Positions 6,666-61,541 of a DNA stretch of 64,000 bases are shown here, piece after piece. A program made the translations under genes and the position numbers. The stretch comes from Fibrobacter sp. UWP2. Lineage in GTDB: Bacteria > Fibrobacterota > Fibrobacteria > Fibrobacterales > Fibrobacteraceae. Each line of letters begins with the position of its first letter. Positions within the stretch are counted from its first letter, which is position 1. Location of the stretch: positions 248,001 to 312,000 of the forward strand of contig NZ_FQYM01000001.1 in assembly GCF_900141705.1 (NCBI RefSeq). Reading direction: 5' to 3'. The notes beneath the pieces were generated by a model that had not been told where the DNA came from, did no database searches, and saw only the letters and a list, made by a program, of their open reading frames with translations.

Positions 6666-8967
6666 TGTCACCCTCTACAACCGCCTTGAGCGGATACTCA
6701 AAGTGGATGGCGCGCGGGGTCGCCACATTGTCGAAACGTATTGTATAGCCGAAGTTCTCTTCATCTACCTTTTCCACCGTCCCGAAACCCAGAATGCGGT
6801 GATGCACACGAGCGCCCACGCCAAAGGCGGCCTTCGGAATCATCGCGGAGTCGAGCGGTCCGTCACCCAACAAGTCGCGATTGCGATCCGCCTCGGCTAT
6901 GTGCTCCCGCGCAGCGCGGTACCATTCCTCGTTAAAGCCATTCACGATGTGCAGGTCGGCAAGGTCCATCTCCAATAAAAAGCGCGACGGGTAACGCACC
7001 GCCTCCTCGCCCGCCCCACCGCCCTCGGCATCACTCAAAAAGAGTCCGTCCTCGGCACGGGTGAACGCCACGTATGCAAGGCGGCGTTCCTCCTCGAGCT
7101 GGATCTTGGTCTGCACCTTTTTGGCGGGGAAAAAGCCCTCGTTCATGCCGCACACGAACACGTAAGGGAACTCGAGCCCCTTCGCGTTGTGAATGGTCAT
7201 GAGCTGCACCTGGTCCTTGTCGCCCGGGTCCTCGTCGGCGTTGGTAAAGAGCACGACGTTTTGCAGGTACTCGTCGAGTGTCGCGTCCTCTTCAAAGTAC
7301 TTTTCGAACTCCATGAGGCCCTGCTTGAACTCGGCGAGGTTATCGAGGCGGTTGTCGTCGCCATCGAGGCGGAGCATCTCCTCGTAACGGCTCTCCTGGA
7401 GCATTTTGGTGAGCGTCTCGGAAGGGCGCATCGACGGGTAGTCGCGGCGGAACTTCTCGATGAGGTCCACATACTCGGCCACACGGCTCTTGGCAATAAA
7501 ACCGCGGCAGTCAAAACCCGTTTCCCTAAGAGTCTGGTCGGCCACGGCGTCGCCGGAGCGGGCCATATTCACAACCTCGACCAGAGTCTCGTACAGGTTC
7601 AGGCCAAGACTCGCGGCTAAATCCTGCAAGGCAACCAGTTTCTTGTTGCCGAACATGCGCTTGGGCGTATTCACTGTCCGCACAAACGAGAGGTCGTCGC
7701 CATACACCAGCATGCGCAAATAGCAAATGACATCCTTCACCTCTTGCCGCTGGTAGAACCCCACTCCGCTGTACACCTTGTACGGCACGTTCGCCGACAT
7801 CAGGGCCTCTTCAATAGAGCGCGACTGCGAATGCATGCGATAAAGGACCGCGATATCGCGGCGCTTGACACCGATGGCAGTAAGGCCCTCGATTTGAGAG
7901 ACTATCCACCCCGCCTCCTCGCGCGTGTTCTTAGCGTGGCAAAAGAGGGGCGTGCGGCCGCCGCTACGCATGGGCTTCAACTGTTTGTCGATGCGGTACT
8001 GGTTGTTTTTAATGACCCGGTTGGGGATTTTCAAAATCGAGGGCGTCGAGCGGTAGTTGTTCTGCAGCAATATGGTGCGGGTGTTCTCATGGAACTTGTC
8101 GAATTCCAAAATGCGGTTCACGTCGGCACCGCGCCAGGTGTAAATAGTCTGGTCCGGGTCGCCTACCACAAACAGGTTCTTGTGGTAACCCGAGAGCAGG
8201 TCGGCGAGCATGTACTGCTGTCCATCAATATCCTGGAACTCGTCCACCATCACATACATCATACGCTCTTGCCACTTTTTGAGTTTTTCGGGGAAGTGCT
8301 GCAATATATAGATGGTCACCAAAATGAGGTCGTCAAAGTCCAGCGCGAAAATCTTCTTTTGCTCGTACAAGTAGCGGTAGTAGACCCGCATCCACTTATC
8401 GGGGGCACCCTCCACCATCTTGAGGAGCGATTCCGCGTCGTGCTCCGCAAAAAAGGGCACGTGGTCCATCTCGTTAGCCTTGCGTCCGCCAATAAAGTCG
8501 AGCGCACTGCTGATCTTCATGTCGGAGAGCTGCATACGGAGTTCGCCATAGGCCTTTTTGAGGATGGACTTTTGGTCCTCCTCGTCCAAAATCATGAACT
8601 CCTTGGGGTAATTGAGCACGTGGATTTCTTCGCGCAAAAAACGGACACAAAAACCGTGGAAAGTCGAAATGTAGCCCGAATCGTCGCCCTTCGCCATTTT
8701 ACGGATGCGGTTCTTCATCTCGGTGGCGGCCTTGTTGGTGAAGGTCACGCAAAGGATGTGCGAAGGCGAAATCCCGAGTTCGTTGAGCAGGTAAAGGTAA
8801 CGGTGTGTGAGCGTGCGGGTCTTGCCCGAGCCCGCGCCGGCGATGACGCGCACAAAGCCCTCGGTCGTCGTAACGGCCTCGCGCTGTTCCGCATCCAAAT
8901 GCGAAACATCCCAGGCGGGCGACCCGCCCACTACGACCTCGTTTTGCTTGTTTACCGGCAGCTGCAT
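6631..8967 (-). CDS. UvrD/PcrA-type superfamily I DNA helicase
   Basis: A 778-aa 3'-5' DNA helicase for repair and replication-fork maintenance. Motifs are complete: Walker A AGAGSGKT (K49), motif II VDEFQDIDG, motif III GDPDQTIYTWRGA, motif IV LQNNYRST, motif V TIHNAKGLEFPYVFV and motif VI VAFTRAED. The C-terminus carries a VGARVHHRILGFGTVEKV stretch, like the Tudor-like RNA-polymerase-binding tail of PcrA/UvrD. I use the ATG at 8967 because the first in-frame ATG (8994) lies inside the predicted -7 element TATATTAT (9000-8993) and so would not be transcribed. Which of the two paralogue names applies is uncertain. Confidence 0.85.
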   Translation of the reverse strand: MQLPVNKQNEVVVGGSPAWDVSHLDAEQREAVTTTEGFVRVIAGAGSGKTRTLTHRYLYLLNELGISPSHILCVTFTNKAATEMKNRIRKMAKGDDSGYISTFHGFCVRFLREEIHVLNYPKEFMILDEEDQKSILKKAYGELRMQLSDMKISSALDFIGGRKANEMDHVPFFAEHDAESLLKMVEGAPDKWMRVYYRYLYEQKKIFALDFDDLILVTIYILQHFPEKLKKWQERMMYVMVDEFQDIDGQQYMLADLLSGYHKNLFVVGDPDQTIYTWRGADVNRILEFDKFHENTRTILLQNNYRSTPSILKIPNRVIKNNQYRIDKQLKPMRSGGRTPLFCHAKNTREEAGWIVSQIEGLTAIGVKRRDIAVLYRMHSQSRSIEEALMSANVPYKVYSGVGFYQRQEVKDVICYLRMLVYGDDLSFVRTVNTPKRMFGNKKLVALQDLAASLGLNLYETLVEVVNMARSGDAVADQTLRETGFDCRGFIAKSRVAEYVDLIEKFRRDYPSMRPSETLTKMLQESRYEEMLRLDGDDNRLDNLAEFKQGLMEFEKYFEEDATLDEYLQNVVLFTNADEDPGDKDQVQLMTIHNAKGLEFPYVFVCGMNEGFFPAKKVQTKIQLEEERRLAYVAFTRAEDGLFLSDAEGGGAGEEAVRYPSRFLLEMDLADLHIVNGFNEEWYRAAREHIAEADRNRDLLGDGPLDSAMIPKAAFGVGARVHHRILGFGTVEKVDEENFGYTIRFDNVATPRAIHFEYPLKAVVEGDTTPLANPDTHE

Positions 8968-28430: not shown

Positions 28431-28485
28431 GTTTTAGCCCAATACAACCCCTTCGACCTTGAAAAATTCGTACATTTAGTGCACG
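28431..28485 (+). repeat. Left copies of attachment-site arm repeats
   Basis: GTTTTAGCCCAATA (28431-28444) and TAGTGCACG (28477-28485) both recur in the same orientation at the right end (61528-61541 and 61514-61522). They lie on the prophage side of the core and fit integrase arm-binding sites. Confidence 0.5.
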
Positions 28486-28541: not shown

Positions 28542-29603
28542 ATGGCATCTTACTGCATATTCATCAAGAACAAGCGTGACCGGGGGTTCTGGTACCTCCG
28601 GAAATCCGACCACGGCAAGGTCACGGACGTGAATCTCAAAACCCACGACCGGAAAGAGGCCGAGGTCCAGCTCATGAAGGTAAAGGTGGCACAGGCCGAG
28701 CTCGACCGGCAGAATGCCTCCGGCGAAGCCCTGAACGCCCTGGACGTGAGACAGAAGGAACTGCGCTCACCGGTGGACCTACCGGGTGGCGTGCTCGATA
28801 TCTGGACGGATAGGCTCAAGGTGGAAGGTTATCGAGAACAGAGCATCAGCCGGTACCTCAGGGCCGCACAGTGGCTTCTGAGGGGCGTGAACATCGCCGA
28901 CCTGACCGCGGACAAGGTGGCGGAGATTTTCGCCACCAAGACCGTCAAATTGAAATCCACGACCCGGCACGGCTACGTGAACGCGCTCAACAACCTGTTC
29001 GACCACTTCGGGAGGGACGACTTGAAAAAGGGTTTGCCCAAGGTAAAGGTCGAGCCTCCGACAAAATCGACGTGGACTCGCGAACAGATGTACGACATAA
29101 TTATGAACGTGCGGAGCAACACTGCGGAGCGGACAGAACAATACCGCCTGTACTTCTCAGTAATGGCGATTATCGGCAGTCGCCCCGGCGAAACTTACGA
29201 CCTTCTATGGTCCGACTTAAACGAGGACACCGGCATAATCCATTTTAGAGCCGAAATCGTAAAGACCCGCCGGGAGCGTTTTTGCCCTCTCCCGTTCTCT
29301 CTGTGGGCACAACTCGAAACGATAAGGGGTGAACCCGACCAACGCATTTTCTCGGCCTGTAGCCCATGCCAGGCGAGCCGCTTCACGGTCCTGAGCAACG
29401 CCATCAAAAGGGCCGGCGTACCGAAGGGCGGCTTAAAGACGTTCAGGACCTCGGTGAGCAACATATTGTACCGGAAGTCCGGTGATATCGTGAAGGTGTC
29501 CCAACTGCTCGGGCATGGCCCCGGTACCGCGATGACCTGGTATCAGTCGGTAAGGGCCCCGGAGGAGCTGGCCGACCTGGTCAACGACGAGGTGATACCA
29601 TAG
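28542..29603 (+). CDS. int: Tyrosine-family phage integrase
   Basis: A 353-aa site-specific recombinase with the N-terminal arm-binding region, a core-binding helical domain (about 75-170) and the catalytic domain. Catalytic residues seen: Arg in GSRPGE (R214), Lys in EIVKTRRE (K241), box II TFRTS (R302, with Lys at 299 where His is usual), His in LLGHGPG (about 325) and the nucleophile Tyr in TWYQS (about 334). It lies 150 bp inside the left attachment core, the usual place. A ribosome-binding AAAGGA precedes the ATG. It should insert and excise the phage at comEC. Confidence 0.9.
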   Translation: MASYCIFIKNKRDRGFWYLRKSDHGKVTDVNLKTHDRKEAEVQLMKVKVAQAELDRQNASGEALNALDVRQKELRSPVDLPGGVLDIWTDRLKVEGYREQSISRYLRAAQWLLRGVNIADLTADKVAEIFATKTVKLKSTTRHGYVNALNNLFDHFGRDDLKKGLPKVKVEPPTKSTWTREQMYDIIMNVRSNTAERTEQYRLYFSVMAIIGSRPGETYDLLWSDLNEDTGIIHFRAEIVKTRRERFCPLPFSLWAQLETIRGEPDQRIFSACSPCQASRFTVLSNAIKRAGVPKGGLKTFRTSVSNILYRKSGDIVKVSQLLGHGPGTAMTWYQSVRAPEELADLVNDEVIP

Positions 29604-29632: not shown

Positions 29633-29886
29633 CCTTCCTCTATAGATATTATTATACCTTTATATATTATTATTTTTTTTTATTTTTTTTCTAAAGTAAG
29701 AGAAGATAAGCCCCCTAGCCCCTTTCTTACTCTCAGGCGGATTTCAGCCCGCCCTCAACTATGCCCCCACCGATGCCCCCCATTTACCCCCCTTTAAAAT
29801 TTCGCAAATTTCGGCACATGTAAGTATAAGGCATTTTTCGTCTACCGACGGCGTCCCTTGAAACCTACCAGCGCATAAGAGTCGAA

Positions 29887-29915
29887 CCGACCAGAAGTTC
29901 TGGCCGGCTTTCTTT
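29887..29915 (+). terminator. Hairpin upstream of the structured-RNA promoter
   Basis: CCG(A)CCAG at 29887-29894 pairs with CTGG(C)CGG at 29900-29907 and is followed by CTTTCTTT. It would insulate the RNA promoter from read-through out of the integrase gene. Confidence 0.45.
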
Positions 29916-29964
29916 GTAAAGATGTAACTGTCACCGTTTCACAAAATTTTTTTTAAGATTTTTG

Positions 29965-29994
29965 TTGCTTTAGAATTTTTTTATGCTATATTTG
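29965..29994 (+). promoter_or_regulatory. Consensus FCB-type promoter for the structured RNA/early operon
   Basis: TTG (29965-29967), exactly 19 nt, then TATATTTG (29987-29994): the best match in the window to the Bacteroidetes -33/-7 consensus. Transcription should start near 30000. Confidence 0.65.
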
Positions 29995-29999
29995 GTTAC

Positions 30000-30210
30000 A
30001 GCAAGGCGGTCCGACTCCGTCTTCGTGGCATAAGTCCAGGCGGTCCTGGCAGTGGCCATCAAGAATGGCCGAGCTCAATTAGCTCTCAATCCTCAAAGAA
30101 CATAACAGACTTTAAACGACCATCTACCCAGTTAGTCGTCCGACCTTAAATATGGCAGTCCATAGTTAAGTCCGGGCAGCGGAGGGGTAGACCGCTGCCC
30201 GGTTTCTTTT
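30000..30210 (+). ncRNA. Candidate structured RNA (~210 nt) with intrinsic terminator
   Basis: Between a consensus promoter and a strong terminator the sequence has no gene but tiles into hairpins: CCAGG/CCTGG (30036-30049), GGCCAT/ATGGCC (30054-30070), GAGCT/AGCTC (30071-30085), ACGAC/GTCGT (30116-30139), TATGG/CCATA (30151-30164) and the terminator stem CCGGGCAGCGG/CCGCTGCCCGG (30172-30202) with TTTCTTTT after it. Hairpins two and three abut, so they can stack. It is either a free-standing phage RNA or a leader that controls read-through into the early operon, whose Shine-Dalgarno starts at 30211. I know no family it belongs to. Confidence 0.6.
30172..30210 (+). terminator. Terminator/attenuator directly upstream of the early operon
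   Basis: Perfect 11-bp GC-rich stem (30172-30182 with 30192-30202), 9-nt loop, then TTTCTTTT, followed immediately by AGGAG and the ATG at 30221. Its position between promoter and ribosome-binding site is that of an attenuator. Confidence 0.75.
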
Positions 30211-30220
30211 AGGAGCCACG

Positions 30221-30553
30221 ATGGAGAGCCTTGCCCAATCCTACCTGCCCAGCACGGGCGACAAGACGACAATAAACATTTACCGGTGTGACGGGGCCAC
30301 CCAGGAGGACACCCTCCAGGAACAGCTTTTGAGGCACGGCCTTATAAAGTCCAAATGGACGCTTGACGATGATAAGCCAGGTACAGTATTCTACTGGTTT
30401 AGGCACGTCGCCGCCCGAGCATACAATATAACACACTTTATATTAAGCGAAGAAGGCCATTGCGGTATTTGCTACCATAGTATACTCAATAAGTTCTTCT
30501 ACCAGAATTACCTACAGGAGCCGGTCCATCTAAAGGACAATATTTATATATAA
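30221..30553 (+). CDS. Early phage protein, unknown function
   Basis: A 110-aa protein beginning after AGGAG with 5-nt spacing, first gene of the early operon. The sequence is mixed and soluble (KTTINIYRCDGATQEDTLQEQLLRHGL, WFRHVAARAYNITHFILSEEGHC) with two Cys near HCGICYHS, which could be half of a metal site. No helix-turn-helix is apparent. I recognise no family. Confidence 0.55.
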   Translation: MESLAQSYLPSTGDKTTINIYRCDGATQEDTLQEQLLRHGLIKSKWTLDDDKPGTVFYWFRHVAARAYNITHFILSEEGHCGICYHSILNKFFYQNYLQEPVHLKDNIYI

Positions 30554-30743: not shown

Positions 30744-32876
30744 ATGACAGTAGACGAGTTTATTTACCTGTGCGACTACGCTGGACTTTTACCGAGCAAA
30801 TTCGATGAACAGACGTGGACCCAGTCGATTGCCAAGTTTGTAGGCATCGGAGTCGACTGTGCCGACCTTATGAGCGAGACGGCCAAGTTCCCCGGTTCAA
30901 AATCCGACGTTAACACGACCTTGAAAAAATACAAGGAAGCCCTGAGGACATCCGATTCCACGGATTCCTTGGCTGTAAGCATCGATGCCAATAAGTTTGT
31001 GGCGATGTCAGACGATAAGAAGCGTAAGGAGTTCAAGGCCTACCTTAATTTCTGTGAAAAGACATTCTTCCCGGCATACATCTTCGACCTGAACCCCAGA
31101 GTGAGGGACTTCTTGGCCAAGAACTTCATGTTCACTTATGCCAACGATGGCAAGCGGATTGTGTATATGAGGAACTTGGATGCGCCTGGAACAATATGGC
31201 GGGAAGCAGCCAGCAGTGAAAACGCATTCTTACAGTTGCAGGGGTCGATGCGCAAAAAGTTAACCGGCCTCTTGTCGACTACGAACGAGTGCTCTACAGT
31301 ATCCGTAATATCTATTCAGGATGGACAACCGGAAGTACAGGATGGCATACCATACTATAAATTGTACGAGTACTACGAGCAGAGCATAATGAAGGGTGTT
31401 TCGGGGACTCCTGCCAACGTAGATTATTTTAAGACAAAACTGCACGAATACATTGAAAACCTAAAACGCAGCTTTGAAAACAAGAAGTCTAAGAGCGAAC
31501 TGTCTAGGGGACTCCAGAAGATACCTGAAATGCTTCATAACATGGATGTCGCAATGGATGAATACGGTTTTATCTACAAGGAGCAAATAGAACTTCCAGC
31601 CTTCACCAACGACCCGAATGAACCGGCTTTTATGTACTTCGACCTGAACAATATCGTGGAAGGACCGACACCCGACTTTGATGGTTTTATGGAGTCCGTT
31701 GTACCGGCTTGTCGAGAATCTTTGATGGCGGGTATATTTGCCACGTTCTTCGCCCAGTCGCACCTTAACCAGTACATTTGGATTGAGAGCCGAGGGGGTG
31801 ATGGCAAATCAAGCCTATTCAACGCTATGGCAGAATATGCCGGTAAAAATCTTTCGTGTTCCCTTGGACAAACGCTTAATACGGAGTTCGGCCTTGAAAA
31901 TGCCGTCGGAAAACGCATGGTTATCTTGAGCGACGTGAAAACCGGGCTCTCAGTAAAAAGCCAGTTGATACACAACCTGACCGGACACGATATAATTAGC
32001 ATCAACCGAAAGAACAAGCCAATTATATCGGCAAGGCTTGACCCGATTTTGTGGATTGCGGCCAACAACCCGCCTGATGTGAACTTTGCGAACAGGAACG
32101 AGGCTCGCCGGTGCTTGTATATCAAAATGCAAGAACCGCCCATTGAAATAAAGAGGAAGTTCTACTTCACTGATGACAAGGGCAACTTGATTCTTGATGC
32201 CTCAGGAAAACCAATCAATAATGGCTACGACCTCAAAGGCAACCTTATCAAGGAAATGCCCCACATACTCTACAAGTGCCGAGAAGTGTTTAAACGGGTA
32301 TGCCCACCACCTTACAGCGTTATCAAACAAACTACAGAACAATCTGCCCTTACGCTTGAAAACTGTGTCGACCTGGACGCCAATGAATGGTCTACTTATA
32401 TCGAAGAAACGTTCGATTTTAGAAACCCCACAGCCAAGTTAAAAATAACAGAAATTCAGGAAGCCATACGCGAAACACGCTTAAACCACGGTGAACGCTC
32501 TGCTATTTCAAACTACCAGAAGGGAGATATCATCCAGCTTCTAGTAAACGGCTACAAGTGCTCCAAGAAGAAGGTCAAAGGTATCCGGTACCTTGAAGGA
32601 ATCAGCATTGCCAATACCTCCGTTATATCATGGGCAAAGTCGGCCAATCTGCAATGCACGGCAGCACCTACAGAAATGTTGCAGAACCTTTATGATGATT
32701 ATAAGCAATGGTGCCACGAGTGCGGAGCCTACGCCAAGTCCAGAGATATTTGGCTCAATGGCCTACGCAACGTCTTCCCCAACCTTATTACTGCCGTCGA
32801 TAATAAGAACGAACTTATAAATCTAGAGTATTGCCCGGCGTTCAACACGTTTACCCCAGTCTCGAAGGTCGTATGA
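30744..32876 (+). CDS. Phage replicative helicase, SF3 (D5-like)
   Basis: A 710-aa replication protein. The C-terminal half is a superfamily 3 helicase: Walker A ESRGGDGKSSL (K355), Walker B KRMVILSDVKTG, motif C DPILWIAANNPP and an arginine finger candidate in NRNEARRC. The N-terminal ~300 residues are not recognised; no primase motif is visible there, and a separate primase gene follows with an ATGA overlap. It should unwind the phage origin as a hexamer. The ribosome-binding site is GGAGATTTAAGG just before the ATG. Confidence 0.8.
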   Translation: MTVDEFIYLCDYAGLLPSKFDEQTWTQSIAKFVGIGVDCADLMSETAKFPGSKSDVNTTLKKYKEALRTSDSTDSLAVSIDANKFVAMSDDKKRKEFKAYLNFCEKTFFPAYIFDLNPRVRDFLAKNFMFTYANDGKRIVYMRNLDAPGTIWREAASSENAFLQLQGSMRKKLTGLLSTTNECSTVSVISIQDGQPEVQDGIPYYKLYEYYEQSIMKGVSGTPANVDYFKTKLHEYIENLKRSFENKKSKSELSRGLQKIPEMLHNMDVAMDEYGFIYKEQIELPAFTNDPNEPAFMYFDLNNIVEGPTPDFDGFMESVVPACRESLMAGIFATFFAQSHLNQYIWIESRGGDGKSSLFNAMAEYAGKNLSCSLGQTLNTEFGLENAVGKRMVILSDVKTGLSVKSQLIHNLTGHDIISINRKNKPIISARLDPILWIAANNPPDVNFANRNEARRCLYIKMQEPPIEIKRKFYFTDDKGNLILDASGKPINNGYDLKGNLIKEMPHILYKCREVFKRVCPPPYSVIKQTTEQSALTLENCVDLDANEWSTYIEETFDFRNPTAKLKITEIQEAIRETRLNHGERSAISNYQKGDIIQLLVNGYKCSKKKVKGIRYLEGISIANTSVISWAKSANLQCTAAPTEMLQNLYDDYKQWCHECGAYAKSRDIWLNGLRNVFPNLITAVDNKNELINLEYCPAFNTFTPVSKVV

Positions 32877-33718
32877 TATTCCTCTGTAAACCCAACCAGT
32901 TCAGCAAGTACATGCACTTGGCTTCCATGAGCAACGAACAGTGGAACGAACTGCTCGAGCATCCGCCCGTGTTTAGCGATAAGAGCAAGGCGCCACTGGC
33001 CATCTATGGCTCGATGGTCCGGGACCCTGAACCGGTCTCCGAGACCGTGCGTCGACCGAGGTGTACAGGGGCAAATGTGGAGCATTTAGACTGCTTGCAA
33101 TTAGATTTCGATAACGGGTTCAGCATCAGGGAATTTGCGGAACATTATGCAAAGTGGAGGTGGACACTTTATACGTCCTACTCTTATGGGTATAAGGAAG
33201 GAGACCGCTTTCGGGTGATTTTACCTCTGCAATCCAAAATGCCTTGCCACGTCCTTAATAATAGGCGAGTCAAGGCCAATCTTGCCTGGCACTTCCCTCA
33301 CGTCGACCAGTGCTGTTTTGATAGAGGCCATTGGCAAATTTTGCCATGTGTTCGCTCAAAAGGCGCCCCATACCAATACCTGCGAAACAAAGGCGAACTC
33401 TGGGGTGGCGATGACTTCTGGAAGGAATACGAATGCTGGGTCAAGGACGATGAAATCGAGTTTGCACGCCGGGCCGAAAAGGCAAAGGAACTTACAAAAA
33501 CTGTCAATGTCGAAGAACTAGTTTCCCAGCTGGAAGATGAACTGAATATGATTCCTGTCGGTGCCGGTCAGAGGTATAATAGAGTGAAGCACCTGCTCGC
33601 CAAATACGTACATAAAGGTCTTGGTGAAGCCGTATTGTCTGTGCCGTGTCCGTGGTCCGATAAGAAGTGGCAAAGACAATGGCCCGGCCTAGTAAATTGG
33701 GCGGCAACGATTACTTAA
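32873..33718 (+). CDS. AEP-superfamily primase-like protein
   Basis: A 281-aa protein whose ATG overlaps the helicase stop (ATGA). It shows the pattern of small archaeo-eukaryotic-type primases in phages and plasmids: LQLDFDNG with D78 and D80 as metal ligands, a strand YTSYSYG, GDRFRVILPL, and DQCCFDRGHWQILPC. In relatives I know, the strand corresponding to YTSYSYG ends in Ser-His, whereas here it reads Ser104-Tyr105. It should make primers for phage replication with the SF3 helicase. The changed position means activity is uncertain. Confidence 0.6.
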   Translation: MIFLCKPNQFSKYMHLASMSNEQWNELLEHPPVFSDKSKAPLAIYGSMVRDPEPVSETVRRPRCTGANVEHLDCLQLDFDNGFSIREFAEHYAKWRWTLYTSYSYGYKEGDRFRVILPLQSKMPCHVLNNRRVKANLAWHFPHVDQCCFDRGHWQILPCVRSKGAPYQYLRNKGELWGGDDFWKEYECWVKDDEIEFARRAEKAKELTKTVNVEELVSQLEDELNMIPVGAGQRYNRVKHLLAKYVHKGLGEAVLSVPCPWSDKKWQRQWPGLVNWAATIT

Positions 33719-33792: not shown

Positions 33793-34635
33793 ATGTCAAT
33801 GTTTCTCGCACCTGCCGCATCTGCAAGCGGCGAATTTAACCTGCTCGAAGACGGCTGCTATGAAGCCGTCTGCGTGGGCCTCCGTGGCTTTATGGGAACA
33901 AAATATCAGAGCGACCAGCCTGAACCTAAAATGCAGTTTGTATTCCAGGTCCAGGATGATGAAGGTCGGCTCCACTATCTTACCACAAAGCCATTGACCA
34001 ACACCATCAACGACAAGAGCAATCTCTTCAAGGTGCTCAATGGTCTCACCGGATACGGCCTCGACAAGTTCCCGGTCGGTTTCGATTACAGGGTTCTGGT
34101 CAATGCAGAAAAAACATTGAAGTGTCAACTCACCATAAAGACGGTGGCATCCAAGAAGGACCCCACCAAGCAATTCAACGAAATCGACGGTTATCTTAAG
34201 GCCAAGAAAGGGCAGAAGACTACATTCGTTGCCGACGACAAGGCCCCTGCATGGCTCAACCAGAATGTCATCGAAACCTGTTGGATGCCGGGTCTTGGAT
34301 TCCAGGAACAGAAGGTTCAGTTCGGCGCACCCACTGAACAGAAACCGCAATTCATTCCCACCAATACCACGCAGGTAAATGCCGGCGATTTCTTGGGGCA
34401 GTCGCCCATGCAGCAAGCCTGCGGAACCAATGTGGCTCCATCTGAATGTGCCGTGGCTCCGTTCCCGACGGCGCAGGAAGTGGCACAAACACCGGCTACC
34501 CAGCCGTCCGCTTATGTGGCGCCGCAGCCCAAGCAGACTTATGTTCCGCCTGCCGCCCCGGCCCCGCAGCCGACTTGGCCGGCCCCGCAGAACCCGGTCG
34601 TGGAAGTCGACGACGGAGATTCATTGCCTTTTTAA
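33793..34635 (+). CDS. Phage single-stranded-DNA-binding-like protein
   Basis: A 280-aa protein with an N-terminal beta-rich OB-like region (about 15-150: GCYEAVCVGLRGFMG, KMQFVFQVQDDEGRLHYLTT, YRVLVNAEKTLKCQLTI), a long Pro/Ala/Gln-rich linker and an acidic tip VEVDDGDSLPF that imitates the DDDIPF tail of bacterial SSB. That tail recruits replication proteins. The gene follows the primase with 74 bp and AAGGAG. The OB assignment is an inference from pattern and context; the C-terminal tail is directly visible. Confidence 0.65.
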   Translation: MSMFLAPAASASGEFNLLEDGCYEAVCVGLRGFMGTKYQSDQPEPKMQFVFQVQDDEGRLHYLTTKPLTNTINDKSNLFKVLNGLTGYGLDKFPVGFDYRVLVNAEKTLKCQLTIKTVASKKDPTKQFNEIDGYLKAKKGQKTTFVADDKAPAWLNQNVIETCWMPGLGFQEQKVQFGAPTEQKPQFIPTNTTQVNAGDFLGQSPMQQACGTNVAPSECAVAPFPTAQEVAQTPATQPSAYVAPQPKQTYVPPAAPAPQPTWPAPQNPVVEVDDGDSLPF

Positions 34636-58478: not shown

Positions 58479-58958
58479 TTAGTTCATGTTGCGGTCGACC
58501 GTGTCGACCTTGTGTGATTTCACGTTGTTGATTCTTCGACCGTCGAGGTTGCAGGCCACCGGCCCGACCTCGGAAATGTCAATGCCCAGCACCGTATCGG
58601 TCACGAACTCGATGCGTGCCTTGCGCCTGGTCGTGTCCCGGACGTGGTTCCTGAGCCGGTTCTGGACCACCTTGACGCAGTAGTTCACCAGCTTCTTCGG
58701 GCTACGTGTGTCAACGTTCTTTTCAAGCGCGGCCAATGCGTGCAACAGCATCGTGGCCTGCACGTCCTCGTTCATCAGCTCCGCACGGTGCGCCCTGTAC
58801 TTAGGCGCCTGGACCAGCAAGGCCGTGGCCATGTTGACCATGCTCTGTACTATCTCCCCGTACAGGTTGTCTATCTCGGGCGGACAGTTATCGGTCTTGC
58901 GCAGCCTGACCGCCATCGCCAACGCATCGGCATTCTCCCAGCAGTTAATCCTTGGCAT
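58479..58958 (-). CDS. Sigma-region-2-like phage protein
   Basis: A 159-aa protein between large terminase and scaffold. Residues ~55-115 have the helical pattern of sigma70 region 2: NEDVQATMLLHALAALEKN, then YCVKVVQNRLRNHVRDTTRRKAR, with the Asp/Gln opening and the basic helix that contacts core polymerase and the -10 strand. No region 4 is seen. A phage late sigma factor is a reasonable reading; a packaging accessory protein is the alternative. GGAG precedes the ATG. Confidence 0.5.
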   Translation of the reverse strand: MPRINCWENADALAMAVRLRKTDNCPPEIDNLYGEIVQSMVNMATALLVQAPKYRAHRAELMNEDVQATMLLHALAALEKNVDTRSPKKLVNYCVKVVQNRLRNHVRDTTRRKARIEFVTDTVLGIDISEVGPVACNLDGRRINNVKSHKVDTVDRNMN

Positions 58959-60783: not shown

Positions 60784-61012
60784 GCGACCGCTCCATTCTT
60801 GCCCGGACAAGCTCGCGCAGGATGGCGTCGAGGCGGGCAATGATGTTGCCCTGGCCAATCCATCCATACTCCTTGTCGAGTTCGTCGTTCACCAGTTTGT
60901 CGAGGGTGACGGCAGGTCCCGTAAGTGAACCGGGCTTATCCTCGCCATGCATGGGCGAAGGGACACCTTGCCCTCCACCTGCCGCACCCAAGCTCTTCTT
61001 TGTTTTAGCCAT
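60776..61012 (-). CDS. 78-aa late protein
   Basis: A 78-aa protein with a Gly/Pro-rich N-terminus (KKSLGAAGGGQGVPSPMHG) and a helical C-terminus (LDKLVNDELDKEYGWIG, RLDAILRELVRARMERS). AGGAG precedes the ATG. It is coupled to the small terminase gene. No family recognised. Confidence 0.55.
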   Translation of the reverse strand: MAKTKKSLGAAGGGQGVPSPMHGEDKPGSLTGPAVTLDKLVNDELDKEYGWIGQGNIIARLDAILRELVRARMERSHV

Positions 61013-61513: not shown

Positions 61514-61541
61514 TAGTGCACGTTCACGTTTTAGCCCAATA
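61514..61541 (+). repeat. Right copies of attachment-site arm repeats
   Basis: TAGTGCACG (61514-61522) and GTTTTAGCCCAATA (61528-61541), with one more TAGTGCA at 61502-61508; same orientation as the left copies. Confidence 0.5.

Follow-up and report, generated by a model that had tools for sequence, protein, structure and literature searches.

Genomic context of the leader

The window, i.e., the whole stretch of 64,000 nucleotides of the Fibrobacter sp. UWP2 genome that was analysed, contains a prophage of about 33 kb that sits in comEC and displays a 14-bp repeat at either edge (28431-28444 and 61528-61541); comEC is a competence gene, and the Listeria prophages in comK constitute a parallel to this insertion. 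The structural genes of the prophage (terminase, portal, head) lie on its minus strand, and the plus strand carries the integrase gene, a gap of 617 bp and the early operon, which includes genes for proteins of 110 and 56 aa, a D5-type primase/helicase and a primase-like protein, among others (Table 1). No convincing relative of the first early protein was found. The right half of the gap between the integrase and the early operon is occupied by the leader element described in this work. A very AT-rich tract (29639-29700), a possible unwinding or recombination site, lies between the integrase gene and the leader.

Table 1. Coordinates of the leader, its parts and its neighbouring genes in the window
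Feature	Position	Strand	Basis	Details
Integrase, upstream neighbour	28542..29603	+	PF00589, phrog_1	
Terminator-like hairpin	29889..29918	+	Read from sequence	Closes the integrase side, 5′ of the promoter
Promoter TTG-N19-TATATTTG	29965..29994	+	Sequence, genome count	TTG 29965-29967; TATATTTG 29987-29994
Predicted leader RNA	29998..30209	+	5′ end inferred from promoter, 3′ end from terminator	~210 nt
Four local hairpins	30003..30085	+	Fold	30003-30023, 30035-30048, 30053-30071, 30071-30085
Hairpin K	30116..30139	+	Fold, complementarity	5-bp stem; loop with UCUACCC (30123-30129)
Hairpin separating K from the terminator	30145..30170	+	Fold	
Terminator	30172..30210	+	Sequence and fold	Stem 30172-30182/30192-30202, loop 30183-30191, T-run 30203-30210
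Shine-Dalgarno AGGAG of the first early gene	30211..30215	+	Sequence	ATG at 30221
First early gene	30221..30553	+	Family scans, comparison with relatives	110 aa, family-less, unconserved in relatives
D5-type primase/helicase	30744..32876	+	PF19263, phrog_864	
Primase-like protein	32831..33718	+	Alignment search	Query for relatives
SSB-like conserved early protein	33793..34635	+	Alignment search	Query for relatives

Anatomy of the predicted leader RNA

An earlier note, made from the sequence alone, had described a promoter, a hairpin-rich non-coding stretch of ~210 nt and a terminator ahead of the early operon, and all of these were found where it had placed them. The 3.2-Mb genome contains 12 copies of the exact form of the promoter, TTG-N19-TATATTTG, versus 2 of a reversed control. 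Six consecutive hairpins are present, as claimed, but not all of them are perfect, since the first contains a G-U pair and the sixth an A/G mismatch. The terminator, read from sequence and fold, has the 11-bp stem that had been reported, which is perfect and is followed by TTTCTTTT, and its T-run stands directly before the Shine-Dalgarno sequence of the first early gene; a simple terminator scan with a loop limit of 8 reported only part of this terminator, whose loop is of 9 nt. The lack of a reading frame was likewise borne out, as no frame with a Shine-Dalgarno sequence occurs within the window leader and the sole frame of at least 6 aa is a 17-aa GTG frame without one.

The leader has a minimum free energy of -72.8 kcal/mol (z -2.61), and 3 of 200 shuffles were as good, so that its fold exceeds chance expectation, though only modestly in this copy; the folds of the relatives were stronger where tested (z -3.89 in L074 and -4.07 in L073, see below). 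Searches of the window leader yielded no match in Rfam 15 at the gathering score, in agreement with the statement that no RNA family fits, and no tRNA, tmRNA, iterons or tandem repeats.

Phages with the same leader anatomy

Relatives were found through alignments of the primase-like and SSB-like proteins, and correspond to five IMG/VR contigs: L073, L074 and L075 came from the primase-like protein alignments, and L113 and L114 from that of the SSB-like protein. Each of the five has the integrase gene, the gap and the D5/primase genes in the order of the window (integrase, leader, D5), and in all five the gap contains a TTG-N20-TAnnTTTG-like promoter, a non-coding stretch of 230-270 nt and a strong terminator immediately ahead of the early operon, no more than about 35 nt away from its first start codon. 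Besides the promoter, the leaders share almost no sequence, except those of L074 and L075, which are 75% identical. No leader open reading frame with a Shine-Dalgarno sequence was found in any of the six leaders, and the five relatives gave no riboswitch matches up to an E value of 1. In L074, a sub-threshold match to YrlA (Y RNA-like; 28.5 bits, E 0.05) was observed at positions 8540-8645, where ARAGORN detected no tRNA.

The first early genes vary from phage to phage among the carriers of the same leader anatomy, and thus the leader belongs to the operon rather than to one partner gene. Furthermore, no such leader occurs in L036, a relative whose portal is 71% identical but whose early module differs, which indicates that the leader goes with the D5 module. 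A portal search led to L017 and L018; the early module on the contig of L017 is of another kind and lacks a leader of this type. No sequence homologue of the window leader was found in its own genome, in 111 family genomes or in 50,697 phage records; a search of viral contigs with the D5 protein and scans of genome contigs with the primase alignment gave no match. The pattern CAAGAACCAGTTGTGA was found in 30 stretches of the viral contigs, among which only those of the L074 and L075 contigs are real; the others were rejected as chance matches in coding sequence.

An element of ~5 kb in another genome of the genus (L053:7800-12700) has D5 and primase-like genes, and no integrase was seen in it. 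A structured leader (z -3.6) precedes its D5 gene without a terminator, which counts against the attenuator reading. Its upstream promoter lies within an inverted repeat that may be an operator (GACGAATTTG-CAATT-CAAATTCGTC).

Complementarity between the terminator loop and an upstream hairpin

The main feature of the element is a predicted long-range loop pairing that the earlier note had overlooked. In all six leaders, the apical loop of the terminator is complementary over 7-8 bases to an upstream segment, which is a clear hairpin loop in five of them. The pairing was first noticed in the window, where the terminator loop holds GGGUAGA (30185-30191), complementary to UCUACCC in the loop of hairpin K, 49 nt from the terminator stem; it then served as a prediction for the relatives and held in each. 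The corresponding K-loop/terminator-loop pairs are CCUUCAC/GUGAAGG in L113 (49 nt to the terminator stem), GAUGCAG/CUGCAUC in L114 (48 nt), CCCUUAAU/AUUAAGGG in L073 (73 nt), and GAACCAG/CUGGUUC in both L074 and L075 (53 and 47 nt, respectively), whose 7-nt loops are complementary along their whole length. Hairpin K of L114 is weak and fails the hairpin criterion. A second copy of the K-loop sequence occurs farther upstream in L113 and L114.

Dinucleotide-preserving shuffles over the 90 nt upstream of the terminator gave p values of 0.044, 0.037, 0.0047, 0.002 and 0.039 for the five independent leaders. The combined Fisher p was 6e-6 over these five and 1.6e-5 without the window, with a 90-nt limit that was chosen after the pattern had been seen; when the whole upstream region was searched, it was only 0.0018. 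Against the leaders of other phages, the terminator loops reached a complementarity of at most 6 within 90 nt, the L074/L075 pair excepted, and a value of 7 was never reached by the 47 further, partly overlapping terminator calls made in the retrieved DNA. The loop sequences change fully while complementarity and distance stay, which fits the expectation for a real interaction. Covariation in related prophages, a check named in the earlier note, is seen in the loop complementarity kept across the relatives, and the 5′ hairpins of the window were left without an alignable homologue. Since the anatomy and the terminator-loop complementarity outlast a complete change of sequence, the element is a real RNA element and no chance cluster of hairpins.

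Segments complementary to the arms of the terminator were also observed, at 30048-30055 and in two GGCGGUC copies that match the 3′ arm. These pairings were rejected: they are weaker than the local stem and do not recur in all leaders.

A crossing helix in two leaders

In L074 and L075, a 10-bp helix (CUUCGGAAAA/UUUUCCGAAG and AUUCAGAAAA/UUUUCUGAAU, respectively) crosses another long-range helix, and its pairing is kept through two double changes. When the structure was slid by 1-3 columns, pairing in these leaders fell from 97% to 35-46%. Because only two leaders align by sequence, a formal test of covariation gives weak statistics, 145 of 500 shuffles being as good. Similar long helices surround hairpin K in L073 (12 bp), L113 (10 bp) and L114 (7 bp), and a bulged one of 7 bp in the window, the crossing helix being clear in L073-L075 and possible in L113 and L114. 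Given that a duplex shuffle test over all leaders was not significant (p 0.13), the crossing helix is claimed for L074 and L075 only.

Proposed mechanism and comparison with known systems

Judging from its sequence, the element is probably the 5′ leader of the replication operon, acting as a conditional terminator (attenuator) with a kissing-loop switch between hairpin K and the terminator. The earlier note had offered a free regulatory RNA, an attenuator and a protein-binding leader side by side; as the T-run abuts the Shine-Dalgarno sequence, a second promoter would not fit in between and expression of the operon from this promoter requires read-through, which makes the element an attenuator by position and favours this reading over a free-standing sRNA gene. 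RNA polymerase would start at the promoter, make ~210 nt and normally stop at the terminator. The loop of hairpin K, ~50 nt upstream, would pair with the terminator's own loop, and this kissing pair could form as the 5′ arm and loop of the terminator emerge, ahead of the synthesis of the 3′ arm. Most likely, on the principle of the guanidine-IV riboswitch, kissing would keep the outer part of the terminator stem from forming and thereby favour read-through; the sign may also be the opposite, with kissing stabilising the terminator. The remaining leader would serve as a sensor, presumably under the control of a phage or host signal, and the terminated short RNA may also act in trans.

In the guanidine-IV riboswitch (GGAM-1), kissing with the terminator loop has been proposed to exclude the outer terminator stem and so allow read-through (PMC7736828, PMC11611296, PMC10907184). 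An upstream pairing with the terminal loop of the terminator appears common to both systems, by complementarity in 6/6 leaders here; however, the phage leader is much larger, has no Rfam match or conserved sequence and precedes a replication operon, whereas the riboswitch serves guanidine export. In the prophage Gifsy-1, according to the abstract of the report on IsrK, a promoter gives rise to a short terminated RNA and to a read-through mRNA of phage genes, and the short IsrK acts in trans on translation (PMC4825925). The phage leader likewise has a promoter, an intrinsic terminator and downstream phage genes reached, by position, by read-through; in contrast, that abstract describes no terminator-loop kissing, and no sequence similarity between IsrK and the phage leader is known. 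In the immunity systems of P4 (CI RNA) and P1 (c4 RNA), a structured leader with internally complementary segments precedes the replication or anti-immunity operon, which is controlled at the RNA level. The phage leader is also complementary to its own sites (the K and terminator loops, and the weaker pairings with the terminator arms), but it differs in the intrinsic terminator at the Shine-Dalgarno sequence, in the pairing of a hairpin loop with a terminator loop and in lacking an Rfam match. Kissing between a leader loop and the hairpin of the expression platform is also found in the cobalamin riboswitch (L5-L13; PMC10907184). There, however, the platform is the ribosome-binding site, and the phage leader has no cobalamin aptamer. 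Finally, the put RNA of HK022 is a phage early-operon leader RNA that influences termination, acting on RNA polymerase at distant terminators, an action that is not indicated for the phage leader. Overall, the element appears to represent a new family of structured leader RNAs from phages, which varies on the known attenuators that work by a terminator.

The literature searched yielded no account of how lysogeny is controlled in Fibrobacter phages. If the attenuator reading is true, these phages gate their replication operon by a structured attenuator in which a second hairpin reads the loop of the terminator, a way of working that has to date been proposed for one small class of riboswitches. 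As the pairing partners change fully while the geometry stays, the leaders provide natural compensatory pairs for testing the effect of a kissing loop on intrinsic termination, and the diverged loop pairs could be used as orthogonal parts for synthetic attenuators. In this virus, dormant in a gut bacterium, and in its five relatives, the match between the terminator loop and an upstream segment of the same RNA suggests a previously unrecognised RNA switch that would turn on viral replication.

Alternative explanations

The terminated RNA might itself be the product, as a stable trans-acting sRNA aimed at phage or host RNAs or, like IsrK, at the read-through mRNA, with kissing stabilising its 3′ end and the operon depending on leaky read-through. 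Its own promoter and strong terminator, the strong structure in the relatives and the precedent of IsrK in a prophage, as far as the abstract describes it (PMC4825925), are in line with this, but a free sRNA gene has no need of a terminator at the Shine-Dalgarno sequence of the replication operon, where it is found in six of six phages, and no conserved unpaired seed sequence was found between the leaders; we thus regard an sRNA as an unlikely explanation. An RNA immunity of the P4/P1 kind, in which the prophage's leader RNA would act in trans, using its self-specific loops to pair with the leader being transcribed from an incoming phage and to enforce termination, is quite improbable: the position ahead of a replication operon, loops that match their partner in the same phage but not in others, and the second K-loop copies in L113 and L114 would suit it, but a purely cis interaction would also give the loop covariation. 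In addition, it draws on the fact that no repressor family was recognised among the scanned prophage proteins, most of which are without any family, so a repressor may have been missed. As a bolder and equally improbable extension, this group of temperate phages could control both replication entry and superinfection immunity by an RNA circuit that needs no protein, in which the hairpin loop and the terminator loop of a pseudoknotted leader would be a self-specific key and lock, diverging between phages and acting in cis and in trans.

Binding of a phage protein (e.g., an early gene product) to the leader hairpins, resulting in antitermination or repression, with a loop pairing that merely shapes the binding site, would account for the several local 5′ hairpins and for first genes without an assigned function; these genes are, however, unconserved among phages of the same leader anatomy and the leaders were found to have no 5′ hairpin sequence in common, and we deem this very unlikely. 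It is hardly credible that the locus serves chiefly at the DNA level, as a replication origin or a recombination site, with hairpins that are not used as RNA, even though it adjoins the primase/helicase gene and the AT-rich tract, given that in six phages a promoter stands at one end and a strand-specific terminator at the other, that loop pairing needs single strands, and that iterons are lacking. Other identities were rejected: a type III toxin-antitoxin system (ToxIN), as the leader has no tandem repeats and the first gene no toxin family, the variation of first genes between phages also arguing against such a pair; a leader-peptide attenuator, by the reading-frame results in the six leaders; and tRNA, tmRNA or known Rfam families, by the searches described above.

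Other features of the prophage and its relatives

Several further features were observed in these phages. Tandem repeats of a GCTCGAAAGAAAACGGACACAC-like unit are present in the divergent early module of L036 (14090-14250). In the window, a gene on the minus strand adjoining a scaffold-like gene (58479-58958) encodes a 159-aa protein that weakly matches a sigma factor (phrog_1740, E 6.7e-4), and a similar protein is encoded in L036 (8540-9019). A glycosyltransferase-like protein (PF13704; 35368-36921, minus strand) adjoins the tail genes of the prophage, and a tRNA-Ala (TGC) gene lies within its right end (60908-60984, minus strand).
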